Source: an uncultured Selenomonadales bacterium
Lineage (GTDB): Bacteria > Bacillota > Negativicutes > Selenomonadales > Selenomonadaceae
NCBI GenBank assembly: GCA_900314765.1
Contig: OMWN01000063.1
Location: forward strand, 1 to 64,000
DNA: 64,000 nt
Direction of reading: 5' to 3'
Shown here in pieces: positions 4,211-61,677 of the stretch. Each line of letters opens with the position of its first letter. Positions within the stretch are counted from its first letter, which is position 1. The position numbers and the translations under genes are program-made. A model generated the notes under the pieces. It saw nothing but the letters and a program-made list of their open reading frames with translations, had not been told where the DNA came from and made no database searches.

Positions 4211-4488
4211 GACCCTCAGCCGCAAGCGGCATAAGCGACCACTAAGCCGCTAAAGCGGCAAGTGTCTGCTTATCCGCCTCCCATTCTGGGGGGCTGGCTC
4301 TACAGAGTTTGTGATTATTTACGTTTGCTGAATTGATTCACATGAAAGTGTGCAACCTTCATTCTAGCTAAATAATCAACTAACGAAAGTGTAAAACATC
4401 TTACTCATTAGTCAAGTTTTAGCGCAAAGGCCCTCTAACTATGCCTCCCACTCTGGGGGAGGTGGCCCCGCAGGGGCCGGAGAGGGTT
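4211..4488 (+). repeat. CCCTCTCCG-type element abutting tpsA
   Basis: A diverged left part (GACCCTC at 4211, CCGCCTCCCATTCTGG at 4275) and a clean right end (CTCCCACTCTGGGGGAGG... GGAGAGGGTTA ending at 4488) enclose internal sequence typical of the family. The right terminus runs into the tpsA stop codon. This accounts for the gene-free stretch 4134-4486. Confidence 0.65.
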
Positions 4489-16400: not shown

Positions 16401-19400
16401 ATGCTTGTATCGCTGCCCGTGATTTCCGCCGAAACTTCGTTCTGTATGTCGTTCACGGCGACGGAGAGGCCGACGGACGCACCCGTGCCCGAACCCGCCG
16501 CGACGCCTGCGATGTTGTCAATGGAACCGCTGCGCTCCGCGTCGACGATGACGTTGCCGTCCGACGTGATGGTCGCACCGCCGACGCTCGTGCCGTCGAG
16601 CGCCGTGTCCGTGATGCCCGCGACGGTGTGGCCGCCGAGGATATTCACGCCAACGGAGCCCGTGACGCCCGCGTACGTGCTGGCCGCGCCGCCGACGCCG
16701 ATGTTGAGAATCTTGTCCTTTGTCTCGGCCTTGACGCGGGCATTTTTCGCCGCGATGTTGCCGCCCGCAATCTTCGCCGTGTTGTCCGTATTGTCATAAT
16801 CGACGGCAACGCCCGCGCCGACAGCCGCATCAGCCGCACCCGCGATGACAAGCGCATTGTTGTAGATGCTGCCTTCGCTTGCGGATGTGACGCTGACATT
16901 CGCGCCATCCGTCGCGCCGTCGGCTTTTTTGACAGTCGTGTCCGTCATTTCAGAGTACGCTTCACGCGCGATGACGGAAATGGACGCCGCGCCCTCGACG
17001 GCAACCGTACCCGAGCCACCAATGCCCGTCGCCGCCGTGCCGATTGTCGCCTTGTCAGTCGTCGCGACCGTGATGCCTGCGTCGTCCACATTCGCGGCTG
17101 TCGTGATGTCCGCATGATTCACCGCTGCATGCGTCTGCTGCTCGGCGTCATTCTTGTAAGTCGCGTCGCCGTTCTTCTCCCACGTGCCAATCTCGTTGTA
17201 GGCGACGGCGCCGCCGACCGCCGCCGTGCCCGCGCCATTGATGGCGCCCGCGACGGCGACTTTCGTGCTTTCGTCGTTTGCGTTCACTGTGACCTTGTTC
17301 GCTTTTTCTATTGTCGTACGCTTTTTGCCCGTGCTTTCATCCGTGACGCTCGTGCTCTCGTCGATGATGGCTTCCGCGTCGTCTCTGCCTTGGTTCGCGG
17401 CGATGGAGCCATTCACGGCCGCCGTCTGACCGCCATTGACACCCGCGCCGACAGAGACAATCGTGTCGCTGTTGTCCGCCGCGAGCGTGACGGCGACACC
17501 GCTGTCCGATACAGCCTCGACATCACTGCCACGCAGATACGCGCCCGTCTTGTTGCCGAGGTGATTGAACGCGATGGCAAGACCGATCCCATTTTTGCCA
17601 TAGCCGGCCTGCCCCGCGACGTTGACATCGAGGTCATTGCTCTTCGCCGCGACGTCGAGCGTGTTCGCCGTGATGGTCGAGTCGTCGATGGACGCCGTCG
17701 TGTTGTTCGTCGTGTACTGCACGCTCGCTGAGCCCGCGCCCGACAGTGTGCCCGCCGTGACGGATGCACCCGCCGCGACGCTGACCATGAGCGCGTCAGA
17801 GGCCGCAGAATTCGCAACGTCCGTTGCCGTGATGGTGCTGCCGTTTTTTATGGCGGCTGTCTTTTCATTTCTCAGCGTGCTGATAGTCGCCGCGCCGCCG
17901 ACCGCGCCGCCGTTCGACTGCGTCGAGCCCGTGACGGAAAACGCCGCCGTGATTTGCTTCGTGCTGCCTTTGCTGTCCGTATTGATATCATAGTCGCGGT
18001 TGCGGAAGTCGTCCGCTTCGCTGCCGCCTTCCGTCGCCGCATTTTTCGTCGCATTTTCCGTATACGTCGATCCTGTCACGTTGACGCTGTTATTCTCGAT
18101 GATTTGATCAAACGTCTTTTCTAGGTCGCTCGCGTCATACGCAGCATTGTCAACAGCACCCGCCTTGAGTGTTGCGCCGTCAATCGTCGCGCCAAGATGA
18201 TTCTCGGCGTTGTTCGAGGCGAGCGTGAGGTCGAGCGCGACGCCGCTGTTGCCGCCCGTCGCCGCCGCGAGGCCAATGGATGTGCCAATCTGCGTGAGAT
18301 TCTCGGCAGCATTGTTCTGAATCGTGCCGCCATTCGTCGTAATCGTGCCGCCCTTGATTGTCGCGTCGATATTATTGTGAACGTCATTGATGGAGACCAT
18401 GGCGCCCGCCGCCGCGCTCGTCTTTCCAGAGCGCACGAAGCTGACGTTCGCGCCGCCCGCGACCTGCGTGTCGCTGTCGTACGCGACGTTCGTGACGTCG
18501 CCTTTTCCTTTTGTCGTGATTGTGCTGTTTTCAATCTTCGCATCGACTTTGTTGCTCACTTCGTTGAACGAGGCGGCGGCGGAGAGATCAAATGCCGACG
18601 CGCCCTCTTCCTCGTTCTTCTTCGAAGCCGCGAGCGCGAGACCAGCCGCGACGCTCGCGCCGTCCTTCTGCGCGATGTTCTTCACGGACGAGGCGTCCGT
18701 GATCGTCGTGTTCTTTATCTCGGACGCAACGGTCTTGTCTTCGACGTTCATGGCGATGACGCCCGCGAGTGCCGCCGACGCATGGCTGTTGCTGTATGTC
18801 GTCGTCTCGCCGTCGATTGTCACTTTTGTCTCTTGCGTTTTCGGATCCTTAAGCACCGTGGCGGGCTCCCGCTTTTTGCCGTCCTTTCTGTCGGAGATAT
18901 ACGTCTCTGCCGCCGCCGTCGCGCGGTCATACCATTTGCCCTCGGCGTTGCTCTGCTGCCAGTTGATGGCCGCCGCGCCCGTGTACGCGCCCGCGTACGA
19001 CGCATCATCGGCCTTCATGTTCACGTGGCCGTCGGTCTCCGTGCCACTGCTGCTTATATTGACGGCGCTGTCCTCTATCGTCGCCTTCGTCTCACCGCTC
19101 ACGACATTGATGGCGGCACTGCCCGCCGCCGCGAGCTGGAAATGCGTCGTGTTGCTGCCCGTATCCCCGAGATTTTCTGACTCCTTGCTCAGAATGCTCG
19201 AGCCCTGCGACGGATTATTCAGAAGCTCAAGAACCCTGTTGATGGATGTTTCATCCTCTTCCTGCATCTCGATTTCAGTTGTTTGCGCTTTTTTCTCGTG
19301 CTCCTCGATTTTCTTGGCGTCGTCCATCGTCATCTCGATTTCATGCGGATCCTTTGTGCCTTCCTGCGCGTTCTCCGTCGTCAGCGACCCCGCGATTGCG

Positions 19401-22400
19401 ACGTTGTTCAGCACGCCGTCCGTCAGCGCGTTCACATCGAGTGCGCCCACTTGGATTGTCGAGTTCTTGACCGCGATGTCATTGACAGTCCCGAAATCGA
19501 GCACACCAATGGAAGCCCCCATGGAAGCTCCACCAGAGCCCCACGCGACGGCGCCGACGACGTTCGTCAATATGTTGTTCGTGTGCGACAGGAGGTCGAT
19601 GTTGCCGTAATTCGCCGTTGTCCCCTTGCCAAAAGAAGTCAAAGTGGCCCCGTCAATGTCAATCGTGTTTGTCGATTTGCCGCCGAGCCACGAGAACAGG
19701 CCCTCAAAGCCAATGTTACCCGCTTTGCCCGCGCCGAATGAAATATCGACCGTGTTGCTCTTGTTCTCGGTATTGATGCTGATGCCGCTGATGTCTTTAG
19801 ACACTGCGGTCTCATTGCCATTTTCATCCTTGCTCGTGGTCGTGACGGTCGTGTCGTGGCCCGTGAGCGTCGCGCCCGTGCCGATGTTGACCGTCGCTTC
19901 CGTCGAGTGCTCGGCGACGCCGACGACGCCGCCGATGGCGTTCGGCGCGTCCGTGTTCGGCGAGACGTAGATGATGTCCTTCCACTTCGCCACGACGCCT
20001 TTCAGACGGTCTTGCCAGCCGTACGAGCCATAGATGACCGCCTCAATAGAGTCTGGGATGAAGCTTGGATTGATGCCGACGTTCGGCTTGCCGTTCAGCA
20101 CGGCCGTGTCCTGCTTCGCCGTGGCATCGATGTCGATGGCGCCCGCTGTGCTTATGAGTTCGGTGTTATTGCCGATTGCGACATTCGCGGTGTTCTGCAA
20201 AAGATTGACGTTCACGGAACCCGCGACGGCGATGCTGTTGCTGTCTGAGCCTGAGGCATTGCTCGCGCTGCTGTCCACGCTGTAGTGGAAATAGCTCTCG
20301 GGCAGCGTCCAGACGAGGAACTGATTCTGAAACGATTTCACGAGCGCATCGACTTCCGTTTGGAAGTGACCTTTCGGATTGTTGTAGGATGCGACAATTT
20401 GCTGGAGGCCGCCGATGAGCGAACCAATCTGCACGATGCCGCCGACGGCGCTCGTCGGGAACGTCGAGAGATTCGTCGTGTACTTCGTGATGTCTATGCC
20501 CGTCGCGCTCTTCGTGGCATTGATGTCTTGGATGATTTTGCCCACTTGCTCGAGCGTCGACGTGTAGGCCGCCTTGTCCGACGCGCTGAGCTTGTCGAAA
20601 TCCGTGTCCTTTTCGAGCGACTTGAACCCCGAATACAGTAAATTTAGGTCGTAGAGAATGCCGCCGATGCGGTCGTAGACCTGCGTGCTGTCCGCCGTGA
20701 TTGTCATCGTGCCTTTGCTGTTCAGTGTCGCATGCTCTGTCGTCGTGCCATCCGCGACCGTGACGTGCGCCTTGTTCTTTATGTCAGAGACCATGACGGC
20801 CGCGCCGACCATGGCCTTGTCGCCGTCGGGATTCGTGTTTTCCATCGCGGACATCGAGCTCATGTAGATGTCCTCGAGCGGCGCTTCCGCTTTCACCGTG
20901 AGCTCATTGCCCGCAGTGATTTTCGCCGTCTTGCCGATGGTGACGTCCGCATCGATGTCGCTGATGCCGACGCCGACACTCGCGCCGACCGTGACGAGGT
21001 CAGCGTATTTGCCGATTTGGCTCATGACGCTGCTCGTGTCTTTCTTCTCGTCTACAGCCGTCGTGGCATTGCTAATAAGGTCTTTGAAATTTTTGGTATT
21101 CAATAATGTGAAATTATCCTTATCAGCGAGCACGTTTTTTGCTTCATCGTCCGAGAGTTTGCCCGGATTCTTTTTCTCGGGCGCGGCAACGGTGTCGTTG
21201 CTGACCGTGACGCCGTTGACAGGCGTGTCGTTGACCGCCGAAATAGTCGTGTCATTCGCGCTCGTCAGCGCGCCATCGACCTCGACTTTGGCGTCGCTGC
21301 TGAAAATATTCACGCCGACCGCCGTCGAGCCGACAGCCTCGGCATTCGACGTGACGGACGCGATCACCTCGAATTTGTTTTCCGCGTTCGCGCTTGCCGT
21401 GATGCTGCCGCCCGTGCTTTCGACCGTGGCGTCTTTGCCGATTGTCACATTGCTGTGGTTGCCGCCCGTGAGCACGGCGACGGCGACGTTCAGTTTCGAC
21501 GACGTGCTCGTGCTAGAGGCGGGCGCGCCGTTCTCCGACGCCTTGGCCTTCACGTCCGTCTTCGACGTCGCCGTGACCGCCACATCGTTTTTCGCTTTCA
21601 CGTCGCCATTGACTGTGACATTCGCGTTGCTGTACGCGCCATCATACGAGATGGCCGCGCCCGCAAGATGCGTCCGCTTTTCGCTGCTCGTCTTCTGCTC
21701 TGGATGCACCTCGGGCGTCGTCGTGTCCGCCGACTTTTCCGTGCCAGCCTGCGCCGTTTTCACGCCGCCCGTCATCTCCGACTCCTTGCTCGTCGATGTA
21801 GCGTACACTTTGTTGATTGCCGTGCTGCTCGCCGACAGCAGAAGGCCAGAATTATCCGCGCCGACGCCCTTGTCGCTCTTGTTCATTGCCTCGAGCTTCG
21901 CCGTCTCCGCGACAGTCACGTTCGCCGCGGAGTCCATGTAGCTGTAAATAGGGCGAAGATTAATCGTATCGTGAAGAGTCTTGATGATATTCCACTGGCT
22001 GTTCCAACGATTCGTCCATGCGGCGCCCGTGGCGCGCCCCCACGCTTCTAATGACGTCGTGTCGTTGTCGCTCTTGTACTCGTTGCTCGACGTCGCCTCG
22101 ACATCGATGTTCTCTTTCGCCGTGATGCTGCCACCGAGATTGATGTCGGCCTTCGTGAATACGACCTGACCGAGCGGATTCGCGATGTTCGGGCTGTAGC
22201 CGCCCTCCTCGAGCTTCGACCAGCCTTCATCGGCATTCGTCGCCGTCGCATAGATATTCGCTGAGCCGCGCGACACGATGTTGCTGCCCGCCGCCGTCGT
22301 GATAGTCGCATCGCGGCGCATTGGCGTGAAATTCGCGACAACCGCATCTTTGAATTTTTCCTCGCTCGGTGCCGTCGCGGAGCTCGCCGAAATCGCCGAG

Positions 22401-23236: not shown

Positions 23237-23363
23237 GATGCTGGCCTCCTTATAAAAGCATCGCTGCCTGTAAATCGTCATTGCGAGGAAATCCATTTGT
23301 GGTTTTATGTGAGATTGTATGAAATTTTTGTCCAGTTTTTGCTGACTAATGCGACGGTCGAGT

Positions 23364-25562: not shown

Positions 25563-25850
25563 GCCGATTGATGAGAAGGACTATGACCAAAAATCCACCC
25601 TTGCACAAATGAAAAGTCATGGCCAAAAATCCGCACCCGCACAAATGAAAAAGTTACGACAAAATTTACCTGCGACATCAAAAAAGCGGACTCACCATCA
25701 CAGAGCCCGCTGATGAAGCAATTCTCCCGCGAATAAATTGACGAGACAGACTATGACGAAAATCCGCTCTCGAGCAAATGAAAAAAATTACGACAAAATT
25801 TATCGGCGACATCAAAAAAGCGGACTCGCAAATCGCTGAGTCCGCTTTTT
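25563..25850 (-). repeat. Imperfect direct duplication ending in terminator hairpins
   Basis: Two related blocks (about 25563-25710 and 25737-25850) share GACTATGACNAAAATCC, GCAAATGAAAAA, TTACGACAAAATTTA and GCGACATCAAAAAAGCGGAC. Each ends in a GCGGACTC...GAG(T/C)CCGC hairpin whose T-run lies on the minus strand. They probably act as minus-strand terminators for the decayed gene just upstream. Confidence 0.6.
25815..25850 (-). terminator. Intrinsic terminator
   Basis: AAAAAAGCGGACTC / GAGTCCGCTTTTT forms a strong stem with T-runs on both strands. It lies downstream of the small pseudogene at 25982-26179 on the minus strand. Confidence 0.7.
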
Positions 25851-25851
25851 G

Positions 25852-25876
25852 AATTTGTACCCGTCGGGTACAAATT
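25852..25876. repeat. 25-nt dyad, copy 1
   Basis: Perfect palindrome with 12-bp arms (AATTTGTACCCG) around a single central T. Identical copies are at 38534, 48105 and 61581, and a sequence variant is at 31999. Confidence 0.85.
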
Positions 25877-38533: not shown

Positions 38534-38558
38534 AATTTGTACCCGTCGGGTACAAATT
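38534..38558. repeat. 25-nt dyad, copy 2
   Basis: Identical to the copy at 25852. It starts 5 nt after the transporter stop codon. Confidence 0.85.
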
Positions 38559-38559
38559 C

Positions 38560-38600
38560 AAAAACGGGCTCAGGAAAAGGACGAGTCCGTTTTTTTGTGG
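38560..38600 (+). terminator. Terminator after the phosphate cotransporter
   Basis: AAACGGGCTC / GAGTCCGTTTTTTT stem-loop with seven T directly after the dyad. Confidence 0.65.
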
Positions 38601-44440: not shown

Positions 44441-45784
44441 TCAGTCGAGGTTTGAGATTTTCGAGAGGAATGATGTGTCGTAGCCGCCTTTTTTGAAGAG
44501 TGGGTTCTCGATGAGGCCACGCTGGAAATCGGCGGTGGTCGTGACGCCCTCGACGATGAGCTCACGAAGAGCGCGCTTCATGCGGATGATGGCCTCGTCG
44601 CGCGTCGCGCCCCAGGCGATGACTTTCGCGAGCAGCGAGTCGTAGTACGGCGGGATGACCATGCCGCTGTACATGGCGCTGTCGACTCTGACGCCGAGGC
44701 CGTTCGGGAAGTGACAGAACTTCACTCTGCCGGGCGTCGGGCGAAAGCCTTCATTCGGGTCTTCGGCATTGATGCGGCACTCTATGGCGGCGCCGTGGAC
44801 GGTGATGTCGTGCTGCCATATCGGGAGCGGCTCGCCTGCAGCGGCGATGAGCTGGAGCGCGACGATGTCGACGCCCGTGACGCGCTCGGTGATGGGGTGC
44901 TCGACCTGTATGCGCGTGTTCATTTCGAGGAAATAGAACGCATTGTGGTCGACGAGAAATTCGACGGTGCCGACGCCCGAGTAGCCGACGGTCTCCGCCG
45001 CGCGAATGGCGGCTTTTTTCATGCGCAGGCGCAGCATGTCGCTGATGCCCTGCGCGGGCGCCTCTTCGAGGAGCTTCTGGTGGCGGCGCTGTATGGAGCA
45101 ATCGCGGTCGCCGAGCGTGAGGACGCTGCCGAAATTGTCGGCGGCAATCTGCACCTCGATGTGGCGTGGGCCAATGATGAGGCGCTCCATGTAGACGTCA
45201 CCGCAGCCGAACGCCGCCGCGGCCTCCTGCCGTGCCTCGGGGAATACCTTCCTGAGCTCGTCCTCGTCCTTCGCCTCTTTCATGCCCTTGCCGCCGCCGC
45301 CCGCCGACGCCTTGACGAGCACGGGGTAGCCGATGCGTTTGGCCGTCTCGACGGCTTCGTCCACGCTCGTGACGAGACCGTCGCTGCCGGGTACGACGGG
45401 CACGCCCGCGATGGACATCGTGCGCTTCGCGTTGTCCTTGTCGCCCATTTTTCGTATGGCCTCGGGCGATGGGCCGATGAACGTGATGCCGTTTTCGGCG
45501 CAGAGCTCGGCGAAGTCGGCATTTTCCGCGAGGAATCCGTAGCCCGGGTGGATGGCCTCGGCGCCGGTCTTTTTCGCGGCGGTGATGAGCGCCGCCATGT
45601 TGAGATAGCTGTCGTGCGCGGGGGCGGGGCCTATGGCGACGGCCTCGTCGGCGAGCCGCACATGAAGCGCGTCACGGTCGGCGGCCGAGTAGACGGCGAC
45701 GGTCTTGACGCCCATTTCGAGGCACGTGCGGATGATGCGTATCGCGATCTCGCCTCGATTGGCGATGAGAATTTTGTGAAACAT
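44441..45784 (-). CDS. accC: Biotin carboxylase
   Basis: A 447-residue biotin carboxylase that uses ATP and bicarbonate to carboxylate biotin on its carrier protein. N-terminal ILIANRGEIAIRIIRTC, ATP-grasp loop KASAGGGGKGM, and EMNTRIQVEHPITERVTG are all intact. Full length for AccC. It ends the pxp operon, 12 nt after accB. No carboxyltransferase genes accA/accD are here; instead the KipI/KipA-type pair precedes it, so it may serve a urea-carboxylase-like reaction rather than acetyl-CoA carboxylase. GAGGTGAT precedes the start. Confidence 0.93.
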   Translation of the reverse strand: MFHKILIANRGEIAIRIIRTCLEMGVKTVAVYSAADRDALHVRLADEAVAIGPAPAHDSYLNMAALITAAKKTGAEAIHPGYGFLAENADFAELCAENGITFIGPSPEAIRKMGDKDNAKRTMSIAGVPVVPGSDGLVTSVDEAVETAKRIGYPVLVKASAGGGGKGMKEAKDEDELRKVFPEARQEAAAAFGCGDVYMERLIIGPRHIEVQIAADNFGSVLTLGDRDCSIQRRHQKLLEEAPAQGISDMLRLRMKKAAIRAAETVGYSGVGTVEFLVDHNAFYFLEMNTRIQVEHPITERVTGVDIVALQLIAAAGEPLPIWQHDITVHGAAIECRINAEDPNEGFRPTPGRVKFCHFPNGLGVRVDSAMYSGMVIPPYYDSLLAKVIAWGATRDEAIIRMKRALRELIVEGVTTTADFQRGLIENPLFKKGGYDTSFLSKISNLD

Positions 45785-45796
45785 GGTATCACCTCG

Positions 45797-46270
45797 TCAG
45801 GCGCAACGAATGTGAAGGAGCGGCTGGCCATACTCGACCATTTCGCTGTCGTCGGCGACGATGTCGATGATTTCGCCCGCGACAGGCGATTTGACTTCAT
45901 TAAATAGCTTCATGACCTCGACGATGCCGAGCACTTGTCCCGCCTCGACGTGCGCGCCGACGGTGGTGTACGGCTCGGCGCCGGGCTCGGGCGCGCGGTA
46001 GAATGTGCCGAGCACGGGGGACGAGACCTCCGTGATGGAGTCGTCCGTCGCTTCGGCTGTAGGCACGCTTGCAGTAGGCGGGGGCGTTGCGGCGGGCGCT
46101 TTCGGTGTTGCCGTGACTTTTGGCGCGGCATCGGCGGCAATGATGGACGCGGCGCCTGCTTTTTTTAGCACGAGGTCAACGCCGTCGGCCGTCATCTTGA
46201 ATTCGACGAGCCCCGACGCGTCCACTTTGTCTATGATTGAGAGTATGTCTTTCATTGTGAGCTTGTCCAT
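45797..46270 (-). CDS. accB: Biotin carboxyl carrier protein
   Basis: A 157-residue BCCP. The N-terminal helical domain is followed by a Pro/Ala/Thr-rich flexible linker (about residues 48-75) and a biotinyl domain with K121 in EVMKLFNEV. Most AccB have AMKM around the lysine, so VMKL is a small deviation. It lies 27 nt after pxpC and 12 nt before accC, clearly in the operon. GGGGTGATAAA precedes the ATG. Confidence 0.92.
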   Translation of the reverse strand: MDKLTMKDILSIIDKVDASGLVEFKMTADGVDLVLKKAGAASIIAADAAPKVTATPKAPAATPPPTASVPTAEATDDSITEVSSPVLGTFYRAPEPGAEPYTTVGAHVEAGQVLGIVEVMKLFNEVKSPVAGEIIDIVADDSEMVEYGQPLLHIRCA

Positions 46271-46297
46271 TTTATCACCCCATAAAATTTTGTAAAT

Positions 46298-47299
46298 CTA
46301 TCCGAGCACGAGTTTTGCGGCGGTGGCCGCCTTCGCGATGAGCGTGCGTTGCTCTATGTAGAGGCGCTCAGCCTCGGCGAGCGAGATTTCGCTGAATGAG
46401 ACGGTGTCACCTGCGCGCGTCTGGCCAAATCGCGGCAGATCGACCATCGCAATCTGCGCGATTTTCGGATAGCCGCCCGTCGTCTGGCGGTCGGCCATGA
46501 GCACGATGGGCTTGCCGTCGGCGACCTGCACGGTGCCGAATGCGACGGGCTCGGAGATGAGCTCGCGCGGCTCTTTGAGCTCGAGCGTCTTGCCCATGAG
46601 GCGGTAGCCCATGCGGTCGGCCTGCACGGTCACGCGGTAGCGTTCCTTTGATGAGAAAAAGCTCTCGAGCGTCTCTTTCGTGAACCAATCGGCCTGAAGT
46701 CCGCGCGTCACGCGAATGGGGCGCGTCGTGTCTGTCGTGACGCGCGGCGTGAACCAATCGACGGAAATCATCGTATCGGAGATTTTGTGGCCGATTTCGT
46801 AGAGTTTTTTCGTGATTTTCTCGTCTGAGGAAATCGTGAGCTCGTCTCCATCTTTGAGCGCGCGGCCATCATAGCCGCCAATGCCCGCGCGCATGTACGT
46901 GCTGCGGCTCGCCATGCGCTTTGGCACGTCTATGTTGCCCGCGAATGCGATATATGTGCGCGCGCCGTGGCGAGGGCCGCCGCATACGAGCGTCGCGTCC
47001 TGCGTCACGAGCACGGGGCGGTGCATGGGGACGGGGATGCCGCCGATGGTCGCCATCATATCGGCGCCCGCGAGCACGAATACGATGCCGCGCTTTAGCT
47101 CCAGCATCGCGCCTTTGAGTGTCATCTCGAGCGCGGCCTCATGCGTGTCGTTACCAACGGCGAGATTTGCGACGGCGAGTGAAAATGTGTCTATGGCACC
47201 GCTCTGAATGATGCCGTATTTCTGGTAGCCGACGCGCCCCATGTCCTGTACCGTTGTCATGAGCCCGCCGTCGAGCACCTTGATTTTCATGGACGTCAT
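46298..47299 (-). CDS. pxpC: 5-oxoprolinase subunit C (KipA, carboxyltransferase-like)
   Basis: A 333-residue AHS2-domain protein, homologous to the second half of the urea-carboxylase carboxyltransferase domain. TTVQDMGRVGYQKYGI, SGAIDTF, VFVLAGADM, QADRMGYRLMG and LMADRQTTGGYPKI are conserved. With PxpA and PxpB it opens 5-oxoproline to glutamate using ATP. Its ATG overlaps the pxpB stop by 4 nt, implying coupled synthesis of the B-C pair. Confidence 0.92.
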   Translation of the reverse strand: MTSMKIKVLDGGLMTTVQDMGRVGYQKYGIIQSGAIDTFSLAVANLAVGNDTHEAALEMTLKGAMLELKRGIVFVLAGADMMATIGGIPVPMHRPVLVTQDATLVCGGPRHGARTYIAFAGNIDVPKRMASRSTYMRAGIGGYDGRALKDGDELTISSDEKITKKLYEIGHKISDTMISVDWFTPRVTTDTTRPIRVTRGLQADWFTKETLESFFSSKERYRVTVQADRMGYRLMGKTLELKEPRELISEPVAFGTVQVADGKPIVLMADRQTTGGYPKIAQIAMVDLPRFGQTRAGDTVSFSEISLAEAERLYIEQRTLIAKAATAAKLVLG

Positions 47300-48057
47300 G
47301 AAGCGTCGCCTCCTTTTTTTGCGTCCTCAGCGCGCTTTATTTCGTCGTATTCGTCCGCCGTGATGGCGTAGAACTCGAGCTTGTCGCCCGCATGGAGGAG
47401 CGTCGGGTCGTCATCGTCGTCGGGGCGGAACAGCGAGAGCGGCGTTCGGCCGATGAGCTGCCAGCCGCCCGGCGTCGCGATGGGATATATGCCCGTCTGC
47501 TCGCCCGCGATGCCGACGGAGCCCTCGGGGATGATGAGGCGCGGCGATTTCTTGCGCGGCGTCGCGATGGATTTCGGCAGGCCGCCGACGTATGGAAAGC
47601 CCGGCGCGAAGCCTATCATGTATATGAGGTAGTCGCCGCTCGTGTGCGTCTCGATGACGTCCTGCTCTGTCATTTTATGATAACGAGCGACATCAGCGAG
47701 GTCAGGGCCATACTCGCCGCCGTAGCATACGGGCACACGCACGACGCGCGCGTCCGCGCTTTTGCCGCCCTTGTCGTCTATGCTGCGGACGATGGCCTCG
47801 GCCTTGAGCTTCGCGACTTGGTAGGAGTAGGGGACGCCTTCCTCGGGATTGAGGAGTGTCTCTTTCGCGAGCACGACAGGGTCGTAGAAAATCGTCACAC
47901 TCGTGTATGCGGCGATGTACTCGGTCATGCCCGCGAAAGGCTGACGCTCGAGCGCGTAGCTGAACGACCGCACGGCATCATGCACGGCGGGGGCGATGGT
48001 ACTCCCGAATGAGACGAGGATGGCCGCTTCGCCGAGCGGACTAAAATTGATTGACAT
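47296..48057 (-). CDS. pxpB: 5-oxoprolinase subunit B (KipI)
   Basis: A 253-residue AHS1-domain protein. YMIGFAPGFPYVGGLP and GSVGIAGEQTGIYPIATPGG are the family signatures. In Bacillus subtilis the homologue KipI also inhibits sporulation kinase A, but here the enzyme role with PxpA and PxpC is the natural reading. A GAGGAAGTG ribosome site precedes the ATG. It follows the DUF1445 gene across a strong palindrome. Confidence 0.92.
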   Translation of the reverse strand: MSINFSPLGEAAILVSFGSTIAPAVHDAVRSFSYALERQPFAGMTEYIAAYTSVTIFYDPVVLAKETLLNPEEGVPYSYQVAKLKAEAIVRSIDDKGGKSADARVVRVPVCYGGEYGPDLADVARYHKMTEQDVIETHTSGDYLIYMIGFAPGFPYVGGLPKSIATPRKKSPRLIIPEGSVGIAGEQTGIYPIATPGGWQLIGRTPLSLFRPDDDDDPTLLHAGDKLEFYAITADEYDEIKRAEDAKKGGDAS

Positions 48058-48096
48058 GGTGTATTCACTTCCTCAATGAATGCAAATGATACAACT

Positions 48097-48137
48097 TTAG
48101 AACGAATTTGTACCCGTCGGGTACAAATTCGTTCTAA
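48097..48137. terminator. Extended dyad (copy 3) before pxpB
   Basis: The 25-nt dyad at 48105-48129 is extended here to 20-21-bp arms (TTTAGAACGAATTTG outside the shared core). It lies between DUF1445 and pxpB and could be a partial terminator or processing site that sets the ratio of upstream to downstream products. Confidence 0.6.
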
Positions 48138-48153
48138 AACTTGACGGTTTTCA

Positions 48154-48951
48154 TCAGAGAACGCCGAGACGCGCTTCTTTGAGGTCGGTGATGAACATGT
48201 GGCCCGGCGCGTGCGTGATCATGAGGTCAGGCTTCACGGCCATCGCGACGGCCTGCGGTGTGACACCGCACGCCCAGAACACGGGGATTTCGCCGTCCTT
48301 TATCGTGACGGGGTCGCCGAAATCGGGGTGATGGATGTCCTTTATGCCGATGTGCTCTGGGTTGCCAATCTGCACTGGCGAGCCGTGCACGGCAGGGAAG
48401 CGTGATGTGACTTCGACAGCGCGCACGACGTCTTTTTCGGGGATTGGCCGCATCGAGACGACCATCGGCCCGTGAAATCTCCCTGCGGGCACGCACTGGA
48501 TATTCGTCTTGAACATCGGCACATTGCAATGCTCCTCAATCTGTCTGACGGGGATGCCGTTCTTCATGAGCGGGAACTCGAATGTGAAGCTGCAGCCGAG
48601 CACGAATGCGACGAGGTCGTCCTCCCAGACGTCCATGAGGTCCGTGACCTCGGAGTCGAGCTCGCCGTGGCGGTAAATGCGGTACTTCGGCACGTCGGTG
48701 CGAAGGTCAGCACTCGGCGCCGCGATAGTCGGGACAGGGCTGCCAGGCTCCGTCACGTCGAGCACGGGGCAGGGCTTCGGATTTCTCTGGCAGAAAAGCA
48801 GGAAATCGAAAGCGAGCTCCTTGTGCATGATAGCGAGATTTGCCTGCGCGTAGCCCTCGGAGATGCCCGACGTCGGCTTTACCCACTCATTTTTTCTGAA
48901 CATCGCCCGCGCCTCAGACGGCGAGAGCTTTGACATATCCATATCAGCCAT
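48154..48951 (-). CDS. DUF1445 putative hydro-lyase (YcsI)
   Basis: A 265-residue protein of the YcsI/DUF1445 family, annotated as putative hydro-lyases by relatives. NEWVKPTSGISEGYAQANLA, FLLFCQRNPKPCPVLDV, FVLGCSFTFE, and the close WACGVTPQAVAM with ITHAPGHMFITDL are conserved. Its place inside the pyroglutamate operon matches the ycsF-ycsG-ycsI-kipI-kipA order of B. subtilis. The reaction is not established. AAGGAG 10 nt before the ATG at 48951 overrides a longer frame. Confidence 0.9.
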   Translation of the reverse strand: MADMDMSKLSPSEARAMFRKNEWVKPTSGISEGYAQANLAIMHKELAFDFLLFCQRNPKPCPVLDVTEPGSPVPTIAAPSADLRTDVPKYRIYRHGELDSEVTDLMDVWEDDLVAFVLGCSFTFEFPLMKNGIPVRQIEEHCNVPMFKTNIQCVPAGRFHGPMVVSMRPIPEKDVVRAVEVTSRFPAVHGSPVQIGNPEHIGIKDIHHPDFGDPVTIKDGEIPVFWACGVTPQAVAMAVKPDLMITHAPGHMFITDLKEARLGVL

Positions 48952-49002
48952 TTTTGTCAGCTCCTTATGATTTGTTGAAAATTTTATGTGACAATACTGC
49001 GA

Positions 49003-49225
49003 GACCCTCTCCGGCCCCTGCGGGGCCACCTCCCCCAAAGTGGGAGGCAAAGTTTGAAAGCTTTTGAAGCCTAAAACTAAACGGAAGAATAAGAGACCCC
49101 ATGTTTCCATTAGTCGATTATTTAGCTAGTGTAAATAATCTTAAACTCTGTGAAGCCAGCCTCCCCAATGGGGGGCAAACATGCCAGTGGCATGTTTGCG
49201 CGAGCGAATGCGAGGCGGAGAGGGT
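49003..49225 (-). repeat. CCCTCTCCG element, inverted copy
   Basis: GACCCTCTCCGGCCCCTGCG at one end and GCGAATGCGAGGCGGAGAGG at the other enclose the usual interior, with the AAACATGCCA/TGGCATGTTT stem. It lies inside the pxp operon between the transporter and DUF1445 genes. Confidence 0.8.
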
Positions 49226-49266
49226 AGGCTATGCTTCATTTAAGCTATAATCAAAAAATTCTATTC

Positions 49267-49347
49267 AAAAAAATAATTGGGCGGATAACAACAGCGGGCT
49301 CGTCTTTGGAGGGGACTCTGCCTGCCCTGTGTCTGTTATTCCGCCCA
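49267..49347 (-). terminator. Large structured hairpin after the NRAMP-like gene
   Basis: On the minus strand a 13-bp stem (TGGGCGGAATAACA / TGTTATCCGCCCA) encloses about 43 nt that can form a second GGGC/GCCC helix. A T-run follows. It lies 95 nt after the transporter stop. It probably ends or attenuates the first part of the operon; its large folded loop is more elaborate than a plain terminator. Confidence 0.55.
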
Positions 49348-49441
49348 CGTCACAAAAAGTAAAGGGAGTAAAGAGTATTATGTCATTGCTATGTCATGCT
49401 ATTGGGAAATGTCAATCGATATTTCCCTAGCGAATAGCCAA

Positions 49442-50704
49442 TCAAGCGAAGAGCTTCGGCAGGTTGTTGATCATTGTGTAGCCGCCCATGTAGAGCATCA
49501 TTGCGAATATGATCCAGCCGAATATGGTCATCCACATCGGGTGGCTGTAGTCGCCGACGATGCGCTTTTTGCTTGCCGCGAGGAGCAGCACGCCGAGCGT
49601 CACCGGAAGGATGAGGCCGTTGAGCGCGCCGACGAGGATGAGCACTTTGACAGGCTTGCCGATGAATATAAATACGAGCGTCGAGAAGACGATGAAGGCG
49701 ATGATCGCGAGGCGATAGTTCGCGTCAATCTTCTTGTTGAATGTGCGAATGAAGGAGACGGATGTGTACGCCGCGCCGATGACGGACGTGACAGCCGCTG
49801 CCCACATGACGATGCCGAAAATCTTGTAGCCAATCTCGCCGACGGAGAGACGGAACACTGACGCAGGCGGATTGGCGGGGTCGAGCGCGAGGCCCTGAGC
49901 GACGACGCCGAGTGTCGCGAGGAAGAGGATGATGCGCATGATGCCGGTGATGGTGACGCCCGTGACGGAGCTTCTCGTGATCTCCGGCAGGTGCTCTTTG
50001 CCCGTGATGCCTGCGTCTACGAGGCGATGGCCGCCCGCGAATGTGATGTAGCCGCCGACGGTGCCGCCGACGAGCGTGACGATGGACATCATGTCGATGC
50101 TGTCAGGGACGATGCTCTTTGAGATGGCCTCGCCCATAGGCGGCGCGGATGTGATGGCGACGTAGAGGGTGAGGAGCACGATGGCTGCGCCCGCGAACTG
50201 CGTGAAATGGTCCATCGCGCGGCCCGCTTCTTTCGAGAGGAATATGACGATGGCGACGCATGCGCTGATGGCCGCGCCGACGGCTGGGCTGATGCCGAAT
50301 ATGACGTTGAAGCCGAGGCCTGCGCCGCCGACGTTGCCGATGTTGAAAGCGAGGCCGCCCATGACGACGAGCGCGGAGACGAAGTAGCCGAGGCCCGGCA
50401 GGACCTCATTTGCGATGTCCTGGCCACGCTTGCCCGTGACGGCAATGATGCGCCAGATATTGAGCTGGGCGCCGATGTCGATGATGATGGACATCAGTAT
50501 GACAAATCCGAAGCTTGCGCCGAGCTTCTCGGTGAAGACGGTGGTCTGCGTGAGAAAGCCCGGACCGATGGCCGACGTCGCCATGAGGAAAGCGGCGCCA
50601 AGGAGCACGCTGATCTGCGACTTCGTCGGAGCCGCAGGCTTCGCGAGGTCGGGGAGCGGCTCGACATGAGCGCTCTTTGGACTGAGTTTTGCTGTTGCTG
50701 CCAT
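49442..50704 (-). CDS. NRAMP-family transporter lacking the metal motifs (YcsG-like)
   Basis: A 420-residue protein with about 11 membrane helices, homologous to divalent-metal transporters. The first helix reads SAIGPGFLTQT where metal carriers have DPGN, and the sixth has FAGGHRLVDAG where they have MPH. The residues that coordinate Mn2+/Fe2+ are therefore missing. Given its position between pxpA and DUF1445, import of 5-oxoproline or a related compound is a reasonable inference. AAAGGAG 8 nt upstream of the ATG at 50704 settles the start. Confidence 0.88.
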   Translation of the reverse strand: MAATAKLSPKSAHVEPLPDLAKPAAPTKSQISVLLGAAFLMATSAIGPGFLTQTTVFTEKLGASFGFVILMSIIIDIGAQLNIWRIIAVTGKRGQDIANEVLPGLGYFVSALVVMGGLAFNIGNVGGAGLGFNVIFGISPAVGAAISACVAIVIFLSKEAGRAMDHFTQFAGAAIVLLTLYVAITSAPPMGEAISKSIVPDSIDMMSIVTLVGGTVGGYITFAGGHRLVDAGITGKEHLPEITRSSVTGVTITGIMRIILFLATLGVVAQGLALDPANPPASVFRLSVGEIGYKIFGIVMWAAAVTSVIGAAYTSVSFIRTFNKKIDANYRLAIIAFIVFSTLVFIFIGKPVKVLILVGALNGLILPVTLGVLLLAASKKRIVGDYSHPMWMTIFGWIIFAMMLYMGGYTMINNLPKLFA

Positions 50705-50762
50705 GATGAACATCTCCTTTTGAAGTTCATGGTATTTGATGAAATCAGATGAAATTAATCGA

Positions 50763-51530
50763 TTATAAAAATTTTCCCGTGGGTCTGATGGCGATGCCGC
50801 AATCGCTGAGGTCATCTCGTATGCGTTTCGCGAATGCGAGCGCTTTTGGCGTGTCGCCGTGGATGCAGAGCGTGTCGGCCTTCACATGTATCGTGCGGCC
50901 GCTCGCCGTCACGACTTCGCCGCGCTCCGCCATCATGAGCGCCTGCGCCGATGCCTCATCCTCATCGGAAAGCACTGCGCCCTTTTCGCTTCGCGGCATC
51001 AGCGATCCGTCGTCCATGTACCGCCTGTCGGCGAATACCTCGGACGCCGATGCGATGTGCTCGCTCTCAGCGGCTTTTATGAGCTCGCTGCCCGCGAGGC
51101 CGTAGAGTATGAGGCTCGAGTCCACGTCGGCGACGGCCTTCGCTATCGCCTCGGCGAGCGCGCTGTCCTTCGCGGCCATGTTGTAGAGCGCGCCGTGCGG
51201 CTTCACGTGCTGGAGGTGCGCTCCCATCGCCTTGACGAACGCCGCGAGCGCGCCAACCTGATACACGACTATCGCGTACGCTTCATCGGGCGATATTTTC
51301 ATCTGCCGCCTGCCAAATCCGACGAGGTCGGGGAGCCCCGGGTGCGCGCCGATGGCCGTGCCCGCGTCAATCGCGAGCTTCACGGTGCGCCGCATCACGA
51401 CGGGGTCGCCCGCATGGAACCCGCACGCGACATTCGCGGACGAAACAATGGGGAGAATGGCCGCATCGTTGCCGATGGTGTACGCGCCGAAGCTCTCGCC
51501 GAGGTCAGAGTTGAGATCGATATTTTTCAT
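50763..51530 (-). CDS. pxpA: 5-oxoprolinase subunit A (LamB/YcsF family)
   Basis: A 255-residue member of the YcsF/LamB family, the catalytic partner of PxpBC in ATP-dependent cleavage of 5-oxoproline to glutamate. DLNSDLGESFGAY, ANVACGFHAGDP, IGAHPGLPDLVGFGRR, VKPHGALYNMAA and CIHGDTPKA are the conserved blocks, with several His/Asp residues likely at the active site. GGAAGTG 8 nt upstream selects the ATG at 51530. It is the first gene of a seven-gene minus-strand operon and follows an attenuator-like leader. Confidence 0.94.
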   Translation of the reverse strand: MKNIDLNSDLGESFGAYTIGNDAAILPIVSSANVACGFHAGDPVVMRRTVKLAIDAGTAIGAHPGLPDLVGFGRRQMKISPDEAYAIVVYQVGALAAFVKAMGAHLQHVKPHGALYNMAAKDSALAEAIAKAVADVDSSLILYGLAGSELIKAAESEHIASASEVFADRRYMDDGSLMPRSEKGAVLSDEDEASAQALMMAERGEVVTASGRTIHVKADTLCIHGDTPKALAFAKRIRDDLSDCGIAIRPTGKFL

Positions 51531-51555: not shown

Positions 51556-51617
51556 AAAAAAAGGTCCTATGACCGTGGATGCTCACGTCGTAACATGAAC
51601 ATTCACTGTCACAGGAC
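51556..51617 (-). promoter_or_regulatory. Attenuator-like leader hairpin of the pxp operon
   Basis: On the minus strand GTCCTGTGAC (51617-51608) pairs fully with GTCATAGGAC (51573-51564). An inner GTGAATGTTC/GAGCATCCAC helix is also present, and seven T follow. It starts about 45 nt after the predicted transcript start and ends 26 nt before pxpA. No known riboswitch class is recognised. Confidence 0.65.
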
Positions 51618-51667
51618 TCCATTGTCACTTGCAGCTCAGTGTGCTTGTTTCCTGAACTACATGCGTA

Positions 51668-51696
51668 ATCATAGCACAAATAAAATTGCTTGTAAA
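51668..51696 (-). promoter_or_regulatory. Promoter of the pxp operon
   Basis: On the minus strand TTTACA (51696-51691), 17 nt, TATGAT (51673-51668). The transcript would start near 51661. Confidence 0.75.
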
Positions 51697-51856: not shown

Positions 51857-51950
51857 GACCCTCTCCGCCCCCTGCGGGGGTAAACGTGCCACTGGCATGT
51901 TTACCCCCCATAGTGGGAGGCATAGCGAAAGCGGTGCTTCACGATGTAAT
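51857..51950 (+). repeat. Hybrid half copy of the CCCTCTCCG element
   Basis: GACCCTCTCCGCCCCCTGCG, the GTGCCACTGGCATGTTTACC stem, GTGGGAGGCATAGCGAAAGC and GGTGCTTCACGATGTAATTG. These correspond to the right part of the element in reverse, and no second terminus is visible. Confidence 0.65.
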
Positions 51951-52045: not shown

Positions 52046-52074
52046 TTGACAGCCGCGATTTATGAATCTATAAT
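52046..52074 (+). promoter_or_regulatory. Strong promoter of the sodium symporter gene
   Basis: Consensus TTGACA, 17 nt, TATAAT; transcription would begin near 52081. It is divergent from the pxp operon promoter about 350 nt away. Confidence 0.85.
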
Positions 52075-52094
52075 GAGCTCATGCAGTTGAAAGC

Positions 52095-52126
52095 AACGAG
52101 GCTTTTATTATGGCCTCGTTTTTTTT
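52095..52126 (+). terminator. Leader terminator before the symporter gene
   Basis: AACGAGGC / GCCTCGTT stem with eight T begins only about 15 nt after the predicted transcript start, 56 nt upstream of the symporter ATG. The neighbouring upstream gene is divergent, so this terminator can only act on the symporter transcript or on a roughly 45-nt RNA. Confidence 0.75.
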
Positions 52127-52181: not shown

Positions 52182-53576
52182 ATGTTAAGCATGTCTGTTT
52201 TTCAAGCGACCATCGTGCTCGCCGTCATCGTTGTCGTGATTGGCGGCGGCATTTTCGCGGCGCGCTCGGTCGAGGGTTCTGAGGGGTTCAGCCTCGGCGG
52301 GCGCTCGGCGGGCGTGCCGATGATCGCGGGGTGCATCGCGGGCACGTGCGTCGGCGGCGGCGCCACAATCGGCGCGGCGCAGCTCGCGGCATCTCTCGGT
52401 CTCTCGGCGATATGGTTCAATATCGGCATGAGCCTAGCGCTCATCGTCATGGGCGTGTTCTACGCGCGGCCACTTAGGCAGACGAGCCTCGAGACGGTGC
52501 CGCAGTTCCTGCGCCTCAATTATGGTATAGGCTCTGAGCGATTTTCAACGGTCGTGTCGTCGCTCGGCATCCTTTTCAGCGCCGTCGCGAGCAGCCTGCC
52601 GGGCATCGCGCTCATCTCGGCGCTCACGGGGCTCACTCACGTCGAGTCCGCGCTTGCGCTCCTCGTGCTTGTCGCGGCGTACGCGTTTTTCGGCGGCATG
52701 AAAAGCGCGGGCATGGGCGGTATCCTCAAAATGCTGTTGATACTTTTGAGTCTTGCAATCGTCGGCATATACGCGTGGGAAGAGACGCAAAACCCCGTCG
52801 TGATGGCGGCGATACCCGTCGATTGGTGGAACATTTTCTCGTGCGGCAGCCACCATATCATAATGAGCGTGCTGTCGCTGCTCGTTGGCGTCATCTGCAC
52901 GCAGACGTACATACAGGCCGTCTTCTCCGCGTCCAATCCGCATACGGCGGCCATCGGCGCGTTCTCGGCGGCCATCGTGACGCTTCCTGTTGGCATACCG
53001 TGCGCGCTCGTCGGCATGTACATGCACGTGGCACATCCCGAAGTGCCCGCGCTCATCGCGCTGCCGACGTACCTTTTGAATGAGGCGCCGACCATCGCGG
53101 GCGCCGTCGCGCTGGGCGGCCTCGTGCTCAGCATCGTGAGTTCCATCGCGGGTCTCTCGCTCGGTGTCGGCACCATGCTCGCGCGCGATCTCGTCATACC
53201 GCGCTTCGGCATCACGGACAGCCACGTCGAGATGGTCGTCATGCGCGGCCTCATCATCGGCGTCATCGTCGTCGCGCTCGGGATTGCCATCACGCACGAG
53301 CACAGCCAAGTGCTGTTCTGGAATTACCTCTCGATGGCACTGCGCGGCGGCGGCGTGTTTCTGCCGTTCACGATTGCCATATTCAAGACGAGGGCCGTGC
53401 CGCCGCGCATCACGCTCATTTCAATGATCGTCTCGACGGCGGTCGCCATCGCCGCGGCAGTCCTCGAGAGCCCCGTCCAGCCGCTGCTCCTCGGCCTCAT
53501 CGTCAGCGGCATCATCCTCGCATTTGGATTTTTCAAAAATGGCGGAGACGACGAAGGAGAACACGTTGTTGGGTGA
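52182..53576 (+). CDS. Sodium:solute symporter family transporter
   Basis: A 464-residue SSS-family permease with about 13 membrane helices. GGRSAGVPMIAGCIAGTCVGG is the typical first-helix sodium-site region; LETVPQFLRLNYG and the later SSIAGLSLGVGTMLARD are also family-like. It would import an organic solute with Na+. The substrate is not clear from sequence; location next to pyroglutamate and carbamoylase genes suggests an amino acid, a cyclic amide or a ureide. AAGGAAG precedes the ATG. Confidence 0.88.
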   Translation: MLSMSVFQATIVLAVIVVVIGGGIFAARSVEGSEGFSLGGRSAGVPMIAGCIAGTCVGGGATIGAAQLAASLGLSAIWFNIGMSLALIVMGVFYARPLRQTSLETVPQFLRLNYGIGSERFSTVVSSLGILFSAVASSLPGIALISALTGLTHVESALALLVLVAAYAFFGGMKSAGMGGILKMLLILLSLAIVGIYAWEETQNPVVMAAIPVDWWNIFSCGSHHIIMSVLSLLVGVICTQTYIQAVFSASNPHTAAIGAFSAAIVTLPVGIPCALVGMYMHVAHPEVPALIALPTYLLNEAPTIAGAVALGGLVLSIVSSIAGLSLGVGTMLARDLVIPRFGITDSHVEMVVMRGLIIGVIVVALGIAITHEHSQVLFWNYLSMALRGGGVFLPFTIAIFKTRAVPPRITLISMIVSTAVAIAAAVLESPVQPLLLGLIVSGIILAFGFFKNGGDDEGEHVVG

Positions 53577-53618
53577 AAATATCGATAAAATATCATACAG
53601 CTGGGCAATAAAGCTCAA

Positions 53619-53659
53619 TGAAGAGCACACTCCTAAATTTTGGGAGTGTGCTCTTTTTG
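53619..53659 (+). terminator. Terminator after the symporter
   Basis: AGAGCACACTCC / GGAGTGTGCTCT perfect arms followed by five T. Confidence 0.85.
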
Positions 53660-58521: not shown

Positions 58522-58586
58522 GCAGTCAGTGGAACAATGATGAGTCAAAATAGTCAACGTTTCCGCAAATAATGTTGTCTGCAAAG

Positions 58587-58625
58587 GCGCAGGATGCGAG
58601 AGAAATCTCGTGCCTGCGCTTTTTT
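58587..58625 (+). terminator. Leader terminator before the permease gene
   Basis: GCGCAGG / CCTGCGC with an inner GCGAGA/TCTCGT helix and six T. It lies about 60 nt after the local promoter and 51 nt before the permease ATG. It ends etfA readthrough and can also act as an attenuator for the permease. Confidence 0.75.
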
Positions 58626-58675
58626 GCGTTTGCGCGGAGAGCCATCAGGCTTTTCCGTTGAAGGGGGTTATGAAA

Positions 58676-59947
58676 ATGCTTGTAGCGCAAATTCTCATGT
58701 GTCTGACACTTCTGCTGATGGTCATCGGCAAGACGCCGATATATCTGACGGCGCTTGTCGGCGCGGCGGTATCCGCCATCGCGGCAGGTTTCCCGCTCGC
58801 GGGCAAGGCCGACATCACCGTCGCGAAGCTCGTCAATAACGGCCTTAACCCAGTCATCGCTGATATGACAGGCGTCCTGATGCTCGTCGGCATCATGGAG
58901 GCCACGGGCTTCCTCGACGTCATCATCCGCAAAATCATGTCCGTCGGCTCGAAGCTTGGCGGCGCGCCTGGCATTACGGCGGCGGGCAGCCTCGCGGCAG
59001 GGTGCATCGGCGCATTGACGGGCTTCACGCAGCCAGTCGTCACGGGCGCCATCACGGGCCCTGCGGCTGTACGCCTCGGCATGGATCCAAACAAGACGGC
59101 GGGCCTCGCGGCTCACGCGGGTCATTTCGGCAACTTCGCGGGCTTCACGCATCCGACGCAGGTCGCGGTCGTCGCGACAGCAGCGATTGGCTTTGGCGCC
59201 ATCAACGTCGTCGGCGCCATCGTCGGCCTCTCCATCATCATGTTCAGCTGCGTTCGCCTCATGATTGAGATGAAGCGCAACGCCCCAGAGGTCTCGGAGG
59301 CCACGAAGCGCGAGGTCGCTGAGTTCATTGCGGGCAAAGGCACTGTGTCGTTCACCATAGCGGTCATTCCGTTCATCGTCTTCATAGCGGGCTTCGTGCT
59401 GGGCTTCCCAGTGTTCCTCGTCGGCGCCGTTGCCGCAATACTCACGGCGATACTCGCGAAAGTCACGATGGCAGCGAGCGAGGCCATGATGATAAAGGGC
59501 CTCGAGAAAATCGCGACGCCGCTCCTCGCGACGATCAGCTTCCTTTTCATGAGCGCCGTACTTAACAAAATCGGCCTCGTCAACGTCATCTCTGAGGTCA
59601 TGGCACCGGCCGTCTCCGTTGCGCCGATACAGACAATGCTTCTCGTCTCGGCTGTCGCGGGCTTCTTCACGCAGTCGAACGCCGCCGCCGTCGCCATCGA
59701 CGTGCCGTTCCTGCAAGTCGTGCTCGCAGCGGGCGCTGACCCGCTCACGGCGGCATGCGCGGCAGCCGGTGGCTCCGCCGTCATGCAGTACTACCTCACG
59801 GGCGGCCCAGTCGCAGCACTCTCGACCGTCATCCCAGTCATAAAAGGCTCAAACCTCAAAGACGCGAACAAATTCCAGCGCCCAGCCATGTGGTTCGGTC
59901 TCCTCGTCCTCTTCGTCATAACGCTCATCATGACATTTGTGCGGTGA
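58676..59947 (+). CDS. Ion-transporter-superfamily permease, substrate unknown
   Basis: A 423-residue protein with about 11-12 membrane helices. Two similar regions look like inverted repeats with re-entrant loops: TGFTQPVVTGAITGPAAVRL and the C-terminal FFTQSNAAAVAIDVPFLQVV. The general look is that of GntP/citrate-type secondary carriers for organic acids, but I cannot name the subfamily. AAGGGGG is 8 nt from the ATG at 58676, better than the ATG 6 nt earlier. It lies between the EtfBA and asparaginase genes, so its cargo is probably the substrate of this catabolic set. Confidence 0.75.
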   Translation: MLVAQILMCLTLLLMVIGKTPIYLTALVGAAVSAIAAGFPLAGKADITVAKLVNNGLNPVIADMTGVLMLVGIMEATGFLDVIIRKIMSVGSKLGGAPGITAAGSLAAGCIGALTGFTQPVVTGAITGPAAVRLGMDPNKTAGLAAHAGHFGNFAGFTHPTQVAVVATAAIGFGAINVVGAIVGLSIIMFSCVRLMIEMKRNAPEVSEATKREVAEFIAGKGTVSFTIAVIPFIVFIAGFVLGFPVFLVGAVAAILTAILAKVTMAASEAMMIKGLEKIATPLLATISFLFMSAVLNKIGLVNVISEVMAPAVSVAPIQTMLLVSAVAGFFTQSNAAAVAIDVPFLQVVLAAGADPLTAACAAAGGSAVMQYYLTGGPVAALSTVIPVIKGSNLKDANKFQRPAMWFGLLVLFVITLIMTFVR

Positions 59948-61185: not shown

Positions 61186-61569
61186 ATGAGTTTTAAGCTG
61201 AAATCTTTTGATCATATTGTCATCACGACGGCTGATGTAGCTGCGTGTATCAAATTTTATCGTGATGTGCTTGGGATGCGTCATGTATTCGCTGATGGGC
61301 GTCACGCATTTTATTTTGGTGATGTGAAAATCAATGTGCACACAAGGCCAGCGGAGTTTTTGCCTGCTGCTTCGTATCCATTGGCGGGCAGTCTTGATAT
61401 ATGTCTCATCACCGATGATGATATAGAGAATGTGAAGCGTGAAATAGAGGAAAAGGGATGGCCGATAGAAGTGGGACCAGTGGAGAGAAACGGGGCAAAG
61501 GGGAGGATGATGAGCGTGTACCTGCGCGACGCAGACGGCAATCTTATTGAGGTTGCGACGTATGAATAA
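61186..61569 (+). CDS. VOC/glyoxalase-fold protein
   Basis: A 127-residue vicinal-oxygen-chelate protein. SFDHIVITTADVAACIKFYR is the typical opening (metal His in FDH), RHAFYFGDVKINVH the middle strand, and YLRDADGNLIEVA the closing strand with the metal Glu. Relatives include glyoxalases, dioxygenases and fosfomycin-resistance enzymes; the role here is not determined. AGGAGGG before the ATG at 61186 selects the start. A 25-nt dyad lies 11 nt after its stop. Confidence 0.88.
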   Translation: MSFKLKSFDHIVITTADVAACIKFYRDVLGMRHVFADGRHAFYFGDVKINVHTRPAEFLPAASYPLAGSLDICLITDDDIENVKREIEEKGWPIEVGPVERNGAKGRMMSVYLRDADGNLIEVATYE

Positions 61570-61580
61570 TCATTCATGTG

Positions 61581-61605
61581 AATTTGTACCCGTCGGGTAC
61601 AAATT
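61581..61605. repeat. 25-nt dyad, copy 4
   Basis: Identical to the copies at 25852 and 38534; located directly after the VOC gene. Confidence 0.85.
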
Positions 61606-61677
61606 CAAAATCACGATTTTTGGAGCTGAAAAATGCGAGCGATTTTGGTGGATTTTCACGAGGTTTTTATAAATTTA

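Follow-up and report, generated by a model that had tools for sequence, protein, structure and literature searches.

The window, a stretch of 64,000 nucleotides from an uncultured Selenomonadales bacterium, carries a 5-oxoprolinase operon whose leader we read, with considerable confidence, as an ANTAR-controlled transcription attenuator that uses one hexaloop. In outline this would be ordinary ANTAR attenuation of nitrogen genes; what appears to be new is the anatomy, a single hexaloop with no P1 hairpin in front of it. With somewhat less confidence, we think it likely that ANTAR antitermination throughout the class Negativicutes operates on a single hexaloop within about 10-20 nt of the 5' end, without the P1 recruitment hairpin, and that the 5-oxoprolinase operon is new in the regulon. 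The features of the window are collected in the table.

Features of the pxpA leader, its operon and the neighbouring candidate attenuators (positions in the window)
Feature	Position	Strand	Basis
-35 box, TTTACA	51691..51696	-	sequence
-10 box, TATGAT, TG-extended	51668..51673	-	sequence
10-bp upstream stem, 51661-51652 with 51639-51630, 12-nt loop	51630..51661	-	folding
Degenerate P1-like element, GCAC[ACUGAG]CUGC, with a C.C mismatch in the place of the closing pair	51631..51644	-	sequence
ANTAR-type hexaloop P2, GAC[AAUGGA]GUC	51615..51626	-	sequence, structural detector, folding
Intrinsic terminator hairpin, mutually exclusive with P2	51564..51617	-	folding, terminator scan
T7 tract of the terminator	51556..51562	-	sequence
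pxpA, first gene of the 5-oxoprolinase operon	50763..51530	-	protein family match
Remaining operon: Nramp transporter, D-glutamate cyclase, pxpB, pxpC, biotin carboxylase	44441..50815	-	ORFs, family matches
Consensus promoter of the divergent operon, TTGACA-17-TATAAT	52046..52074	+	sequence
Second ANTAR-type attenuator: AAAGC[AACGAG]GCUUU 52090-52105, terminator 52095-52120 with T tail	52090..52120	+	detector
Third ANTAR-type attenuator: CUGC[AAAGGC]GCAG 58579-58592, terminator 58583-58623	58579..58623	+	detector
Possible fourth attenuator: GCUC[AAUGAA]GAGC, terminator 53621-53655	53613..53655	+	terminator scan

Anatomy of the pxpA leader

The pxpA promoter (TTTACA-17 nt-TATGAT, 51696-51668, minus strand) agrees with the consensus at 10 of 12 positions and has a TG before the -10 box; its spacing would put the transcription start near 51661. 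On the same strand about 40-44 nt of leader follow before the terminator, which is a single long hairpin with interruptions and the top-scoring terminator-like hairpin in a scan of the whole window. From the end of the T7 tract to the pxpA ATG (51530) there are 26 nt. The RNA from 51661 to 51556 folds at -47.2 kcal/mol vs -25.1 +/- 3.4 in shuffles (z = -6.5), and none of the 200 shuffles folded as well. This bears out the original prediction of a TTTACA-17-TATGAT promoter, a leader of roughly 45 nt and a hairpin with a seven-T tail ending 26 nt before pxpA. The same prediction recognised no known riboswitch class, and the covariance models of Rfam 15 indeed gave the leader no match at the gathering score; the weak matches at E<1 were microRNA hairpin models, far under threshold. 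It had counted seven genes in the operon, of which six were matched to protein families, the biotin carrier gene being outside that count. A terminator-like site at 44291-44251 lies after the operon.

Taken whole, the leader is single-copy in its own genome, and a repeat element was rejected as its identity on this ground. A nucleotide search with the leader in 60 relatives matched only at the pxpA start codon region, and conservation at the DNA level is absent outside its own genome. A short frame that runs through the hairpin would encode a possible leader peptide, MESCDSECSCYDVSIHGHRTFFYFQIWK; it was dismissed by inspection, having no ribosome site and no conservation.

P2 lies at the foot of the terminator. 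Its stem of at least 3 bp ends in a C-G pair below a six-base loop, of which the first base is A and the fourth G, and the 3' strand of P2 also serves as the opening portion of the terminator 5' arm. Because they share this strand, P2 and the terminator cannot coexist. P2 is the predicted fold of the truncated nascent RNA, before the terminator is completed.

When the sequences in front of pxpA were read across Selenomonadaceae, a short string common to the pxpA leaders was found at the terminator foot: GTGACAATGGAGTCC in this genome, GTGACAATGAAGTCC in L086, ATGGCAATGGGGCC in L088, TTGGCAATGACGCC in L090 and AGCAAAGGCGCT in L095. Each string is a mini-hairpin in which at least 3 bp, the one next to the loop being C-G, carry an A1/G4 hexaloop. 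The 3' strand of the hexaloop, often plus part of the loop, opens the terminator 5' arm in these leaders, and the two structures are therefore mutually exclusive. The 10-bp stem upstream of P2 has no counterpart in the other pxpA leaders compared. Only 12 of 30 pxpA leaders, a few of them doubtful, carry a detected P2-terminator, so control of pxpA by the ANTAR route appears to be lineage-specific and not universal. In one genus, pxpA leaders L100, L102-L104, L106, L110, L111, L113 and L114 have the hexaloop GAGC[RAUGRG]GCUC, usually with G replacing A1. It stands upstream of the terminator and separate from it, and is perhaps a P1-like or diverged form.

Some other observations concern the surroundings of the operon. 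A long palindrome, GGGGGTAAACGTGCC..GGCATGTTTACCCCC, lies at 51857-51925 between the divergent pxpA and symporter promoters. Another, GAATTTGTACCCGTCGGGTACAAATTC, recurs whole or as a half between genes at about 25816-25870, about 38540-38593, 48086-48148 and 61568-61618; its copies often adjoin terminators and it resembles a dispersed repeat. On the minus strand, 4487-23296 is one open reading frame of 6269 codons.

The ANTAR regulator and the nitrogen genes

A profile search found exactly one ANTAR domain encoded in the genome (E 5.5e-19). It belongs to a response regulator of the receiver-ANTAR type, whose gene follows that of a kinase with GAF_PdtaS, PAS and HisKA_2 domains. The regulator is of the EutV/PdtaR type, aligning over its full length with EutV (6wsh, E 6.5e-42) and with Rv1626 (1s8n). 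Among the RNA contacts of EutV named in PMC8934654, R142, K143, K149, E160, Y164, M172 and R175 are retained, R168Q, N173V and R177S are changed, and K147 is R. The pair shares with PdtaS/PdtaR (Rv1626) the GAF_PdtaS and HisKA_2 kinase and the receiver-ANTAR regulator; unlike in that system, the targets here are terminator-overlapping nitrogen leaders.

A hexaloop marked by A1 and G4 is what the known ANTAR proteins AmiR, NasR and EutV bind, and canonical targets consist of two hexaloops, P1 and P2 (PMC3369931); the mutants described there point to C-G as the loop-closing pair of eutP. As described in PMC3369931, the targets E. faecalis eut (EutV), K. oxytoca nasF (NasR) and P. aeruginosa amiE (AmiR) have in common with the present sites the A1/G4 hexaloop, the short stem, the C-G closing pair, the hairpin overlapping the terminator 5' arm, the nitrogen genes and the ANTAR protein with a kinase (EutV/EutW). 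Unlike them, the sites here have no upstream P1, and often two complete single-hexaloop attenuators stand in series (amtB).

A plain search for the hexaloop pattern plus a T-run was noisy, with control counts nearly as high, and for that reason a structural detector was used, which accepts a hexaloop only where it foots a terminator. In the examined parts of the genome, a hexaloop-terminator precedes amtB-PII, glnA, glnP, dcuC, pxpA and two transporter genes. With the same element before amtB-PII, glnA, glnP and dcuC, pxpA would be a member of a nitrogen regulon, and ammonium uptake, glutamine synthesis, glutamine transport and pyroglutamate breakdown would be tied together. Nitrogen genes are the theme of known ANTAR regulons, matching the regulon seen here. 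Regulons predicted by covariance, for example in Desulfotomaculum acetoxidans (PMC3369931), likewise contain ammonium transporter, P-II, glutamine synthase and glutamate synthase genes; the covariance model used there demanded two hairpins, whereas the sites here have one. The main text of PMC3369931 names neither Selenomonas nor Veillonella, and pxpA and 5-oxoprolinase are not among the ANTAR targets named in it; the supplementary tables of ANTAR papers may hold a Negativicutes entry.

The enrichment of A1/G4 terminator feet over 250 kb of the genome is mild (7 vs 6 for the next letter pair), and the case was therefore built on the comparison of orthologous leaders, with raw counts given no weight. 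Within the window, the second attenuator of the table precedes a sodium:solute symporter gene (52182-53576) and the third a transporter-like gene (58670-59947). A further ANTAR site inside the operon is possible at 53613-53655 (+), where GCUC[AAUGAA]GAGC foots a strong terminator in the gap between the symporter gene and an amidohydrolase gene; its closing context (UC..GA) is unlike that of the other hexaloops. A glutamate-synthase-like candidate (L116), to whose protein Pfam gave no name, is doubtful as a member of the regulon because TATAAT ends 2 nt before the hexaloop stem. At a Selenomonas locus (L151:2656-2820, plus strand) two tandem single-hexaloop attenuators were seen before a 131-residue protein (MRSFPLFSELEAHRDK...).

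amtB leaders, covariation and the place of P1

An ANTAR domain above the curated cut-off is encoded in 101 of the 189 genomes of the family. The element was found in 49 of 50 amtB leaders of ANTAR-bearing relatives (29/30 and 20/20), and the single leader without it is cut by a contig end. In the large genus g13, amtB is present and ANTAR-like matches occur in a few genomes, all below the cut-off; here the element was found in 0 of 20 amtB leaders, a comparison that covers one genus and perhaps one evolutionary event. No other combination of letters in positions 1 and 4 was seen in more than 5 of 30 amtB leaders per set. In other Negativicutes families, chosen by family label and not by ANTAR presence, 35 of 40 amtB leaders carry the element, and most of the remaining five are near-misses such as GGC[GAUGAA]GCC.

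Three amtB leaders from these families, L329, L330 and L343, have the loops GAUGGG, GAUGAA and GACGAU, with G replacing A at position 1; loop position 1 may thus be a purine rather than strictly A. In the Selenomonas amtB leaders L182-L199 the apical part of the first terminator, CAGGTACCGG, is strongly conserved, and the transcripts often start with a conserved CATCA. ANTAR binding would explain neither the apex nor the start.

The stem of the hexaloop covaries. Across 47 distinct 16-nt sites, preselected for three pairs in a way that favours the inner pairs, 61 two-sided changes were counted vs 25.5 in shuffles, and none of 500 shuffles scored as high. Paired cells made up 86% in the real sites vs 68% in shuffles, and sliding the partner by one base about halved the pairing. 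When every CAANGNNG site was taken regardless of its flanks, two or more further pairs were present in 82 of 92 amtB cases with ANTAR, and in none of the 5 sites from the genus that lacks it. The original prediction had named covariation between homologous leaders as a check on itself, and the hexaloop stem shows it.

No canonical P1 (A1/G4, three pairs) was found within 32 nt upstream in any of 86 family sites. Outside the family there were 2 weak candidates in 52 sites, with no excess over other letter pairs. Applied to Tolumonas (L295) and to a Clostridiales genome (L290), the same search does recover P1; the Clostridiales genome carries single hexaloops as well. Where the -10 box of an amtB leader can be recognised, TATAAT and the P2 stem are in most cases 14-23 nt apart, and this leaves too little transcript for a second hairpin. 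These findings point to a variant of the ANTAR target that has one hexaloop and no P1, apparently class-wide.

The pxpA leader likewise lacks an upstream P1 at a linker of 5-12 nt (2-25 in PMC8164766), and it is not classed as a canonical dual-hexaloop target because this feature was tested and is absent; it very probably works like one. The P1-like element listed in the table was missed by the search for hexaloops with at least 3 bp, and it competes with the 10-bp stem. It is probably non-functional and is taken, from its sequence, as a chance occurrence or a relic.

Proposed mechanism and alternatives

Computation gave the anatomy, the mutual exclusion, the ANTAR/kinase pair, the regulon, the covariation, the match between the element and the presence of ANTAR, and the lack of a canonical P1; binding, antitermination, a nitrogen signal and the sufficiency of one hexaloop are what we infer. 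RNA polymerase would start near 51661 and, with no intervention, the terminator (51617-51564) would fold and transcription would halt before pxpA. Presumably under nitrogen limitation, the PdtaS/EutW-like kinase would activate the sole ANTAR response regulator, which would bind GAC[AAUGGA]GUC as the hexaloop emerges. The 5' foot of the terminator would then be kept in the mini-hairpin, so that the terminator would be blocked and the operon read. The same regulator would act on amtB, glnA, glnP and other nitrogen genes and, unlike at known ANTAR targets, recognition would go through one hexaloop only. The view that a terminator in this place must be conditionally bypassed is upheld.

The nearest alternative keeps the ANTAR protein and makes the leader a canonical dual-hexaloop target, with GCAC[ACUGAG]CUGC at 51644-51631 as a working P1 despite its mismatch. 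A1 and G4 are rightly placed in it, it has GCA/UGC flanks, and a 4-nt linker leads to P2. We consider this improbable, since the C.C mismatch falls at the closing position, where changes affect EutV (PMC3369931), a stable 10-bp stem competes, and the 86 related sites show no counterpart upstream of P2, other leaders having no room for one. An objection to the one-hexaloop reading itself comes from E. faecalis, where deletion of P1 abolishes induction and the length of the linker matters (PMC3369931), and where P1 is needed for antitermination in vivo (PMC3369931, PMC8934654). The 2022 structure paper PMC8934654 describes one hexaloop as the minimal binding site and yet P1 as obligatory in vivo, with the dimer recruited at P1 first and then handed to P2; single sites are expected there only without a polymerase time limit. 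Because of this need for P1 in E. faecalis, a one-hexaloop site may bind the regulator and yet not antiterminate, unless the Negativicutes proteins differ. The changed EutV contacts (R168Q, N173V, R177S, and R for K147) and the limited spread of P2-terminators among pxpA leaders also weigh against our reading.

Two further readings do without an ANTAR protein. The order of promoter, leader and terminator, with no known Rfam family, would also fit a riboswitch that binds 5-oxoproline, glutamate, glutamine or ammonium. We regard this as extremely improbable: ahead of the hairpin the pxpA leaders conserve no stretch of aptamer size, many element-bearing leaders begin only about 10-17 nt before the element, and presence of the element tracks presence of the ANTAR gene. 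The original prediction had proposed a ligand- or protein-controlled leader, new and specific to pyroglutamate metabolism. Control by a protein is possible; a new pyroglutamate-specific ligand sensor is not borne out, since an aptamer-like region is not common to pxpA leaders, and the A1/G4 hexaloop also stands before amtB, glnA, glnP and dcuC. The other reading takes the hairpin as an unregulated partial terminator that lowers expression, or as the 3' end of a small RNA made from the pxpA promoter. The hairpin is strong and has its T7 tract, and complete termination is not required. The fixed A1, G4 and C-G closing pair, the covarying stem and the recurrence before nitrogen genes argue against it, and we hold it to be very improbable.

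ANTAR control through a single hexaloop, if true, would contradict the current rule, which asks for both hexaloops and lets single sites work only where polymerase sets no time limit. Published covariance searches with two hairpins will have missed such sites. A bacterial class that apparently lacks P1 would be a natural system in which to probe the purpose of the recruitment hairpin. For this genome, it would mean that pyroglutamate breakdown is coupled to ammonium uptake and glutamine synthesis.
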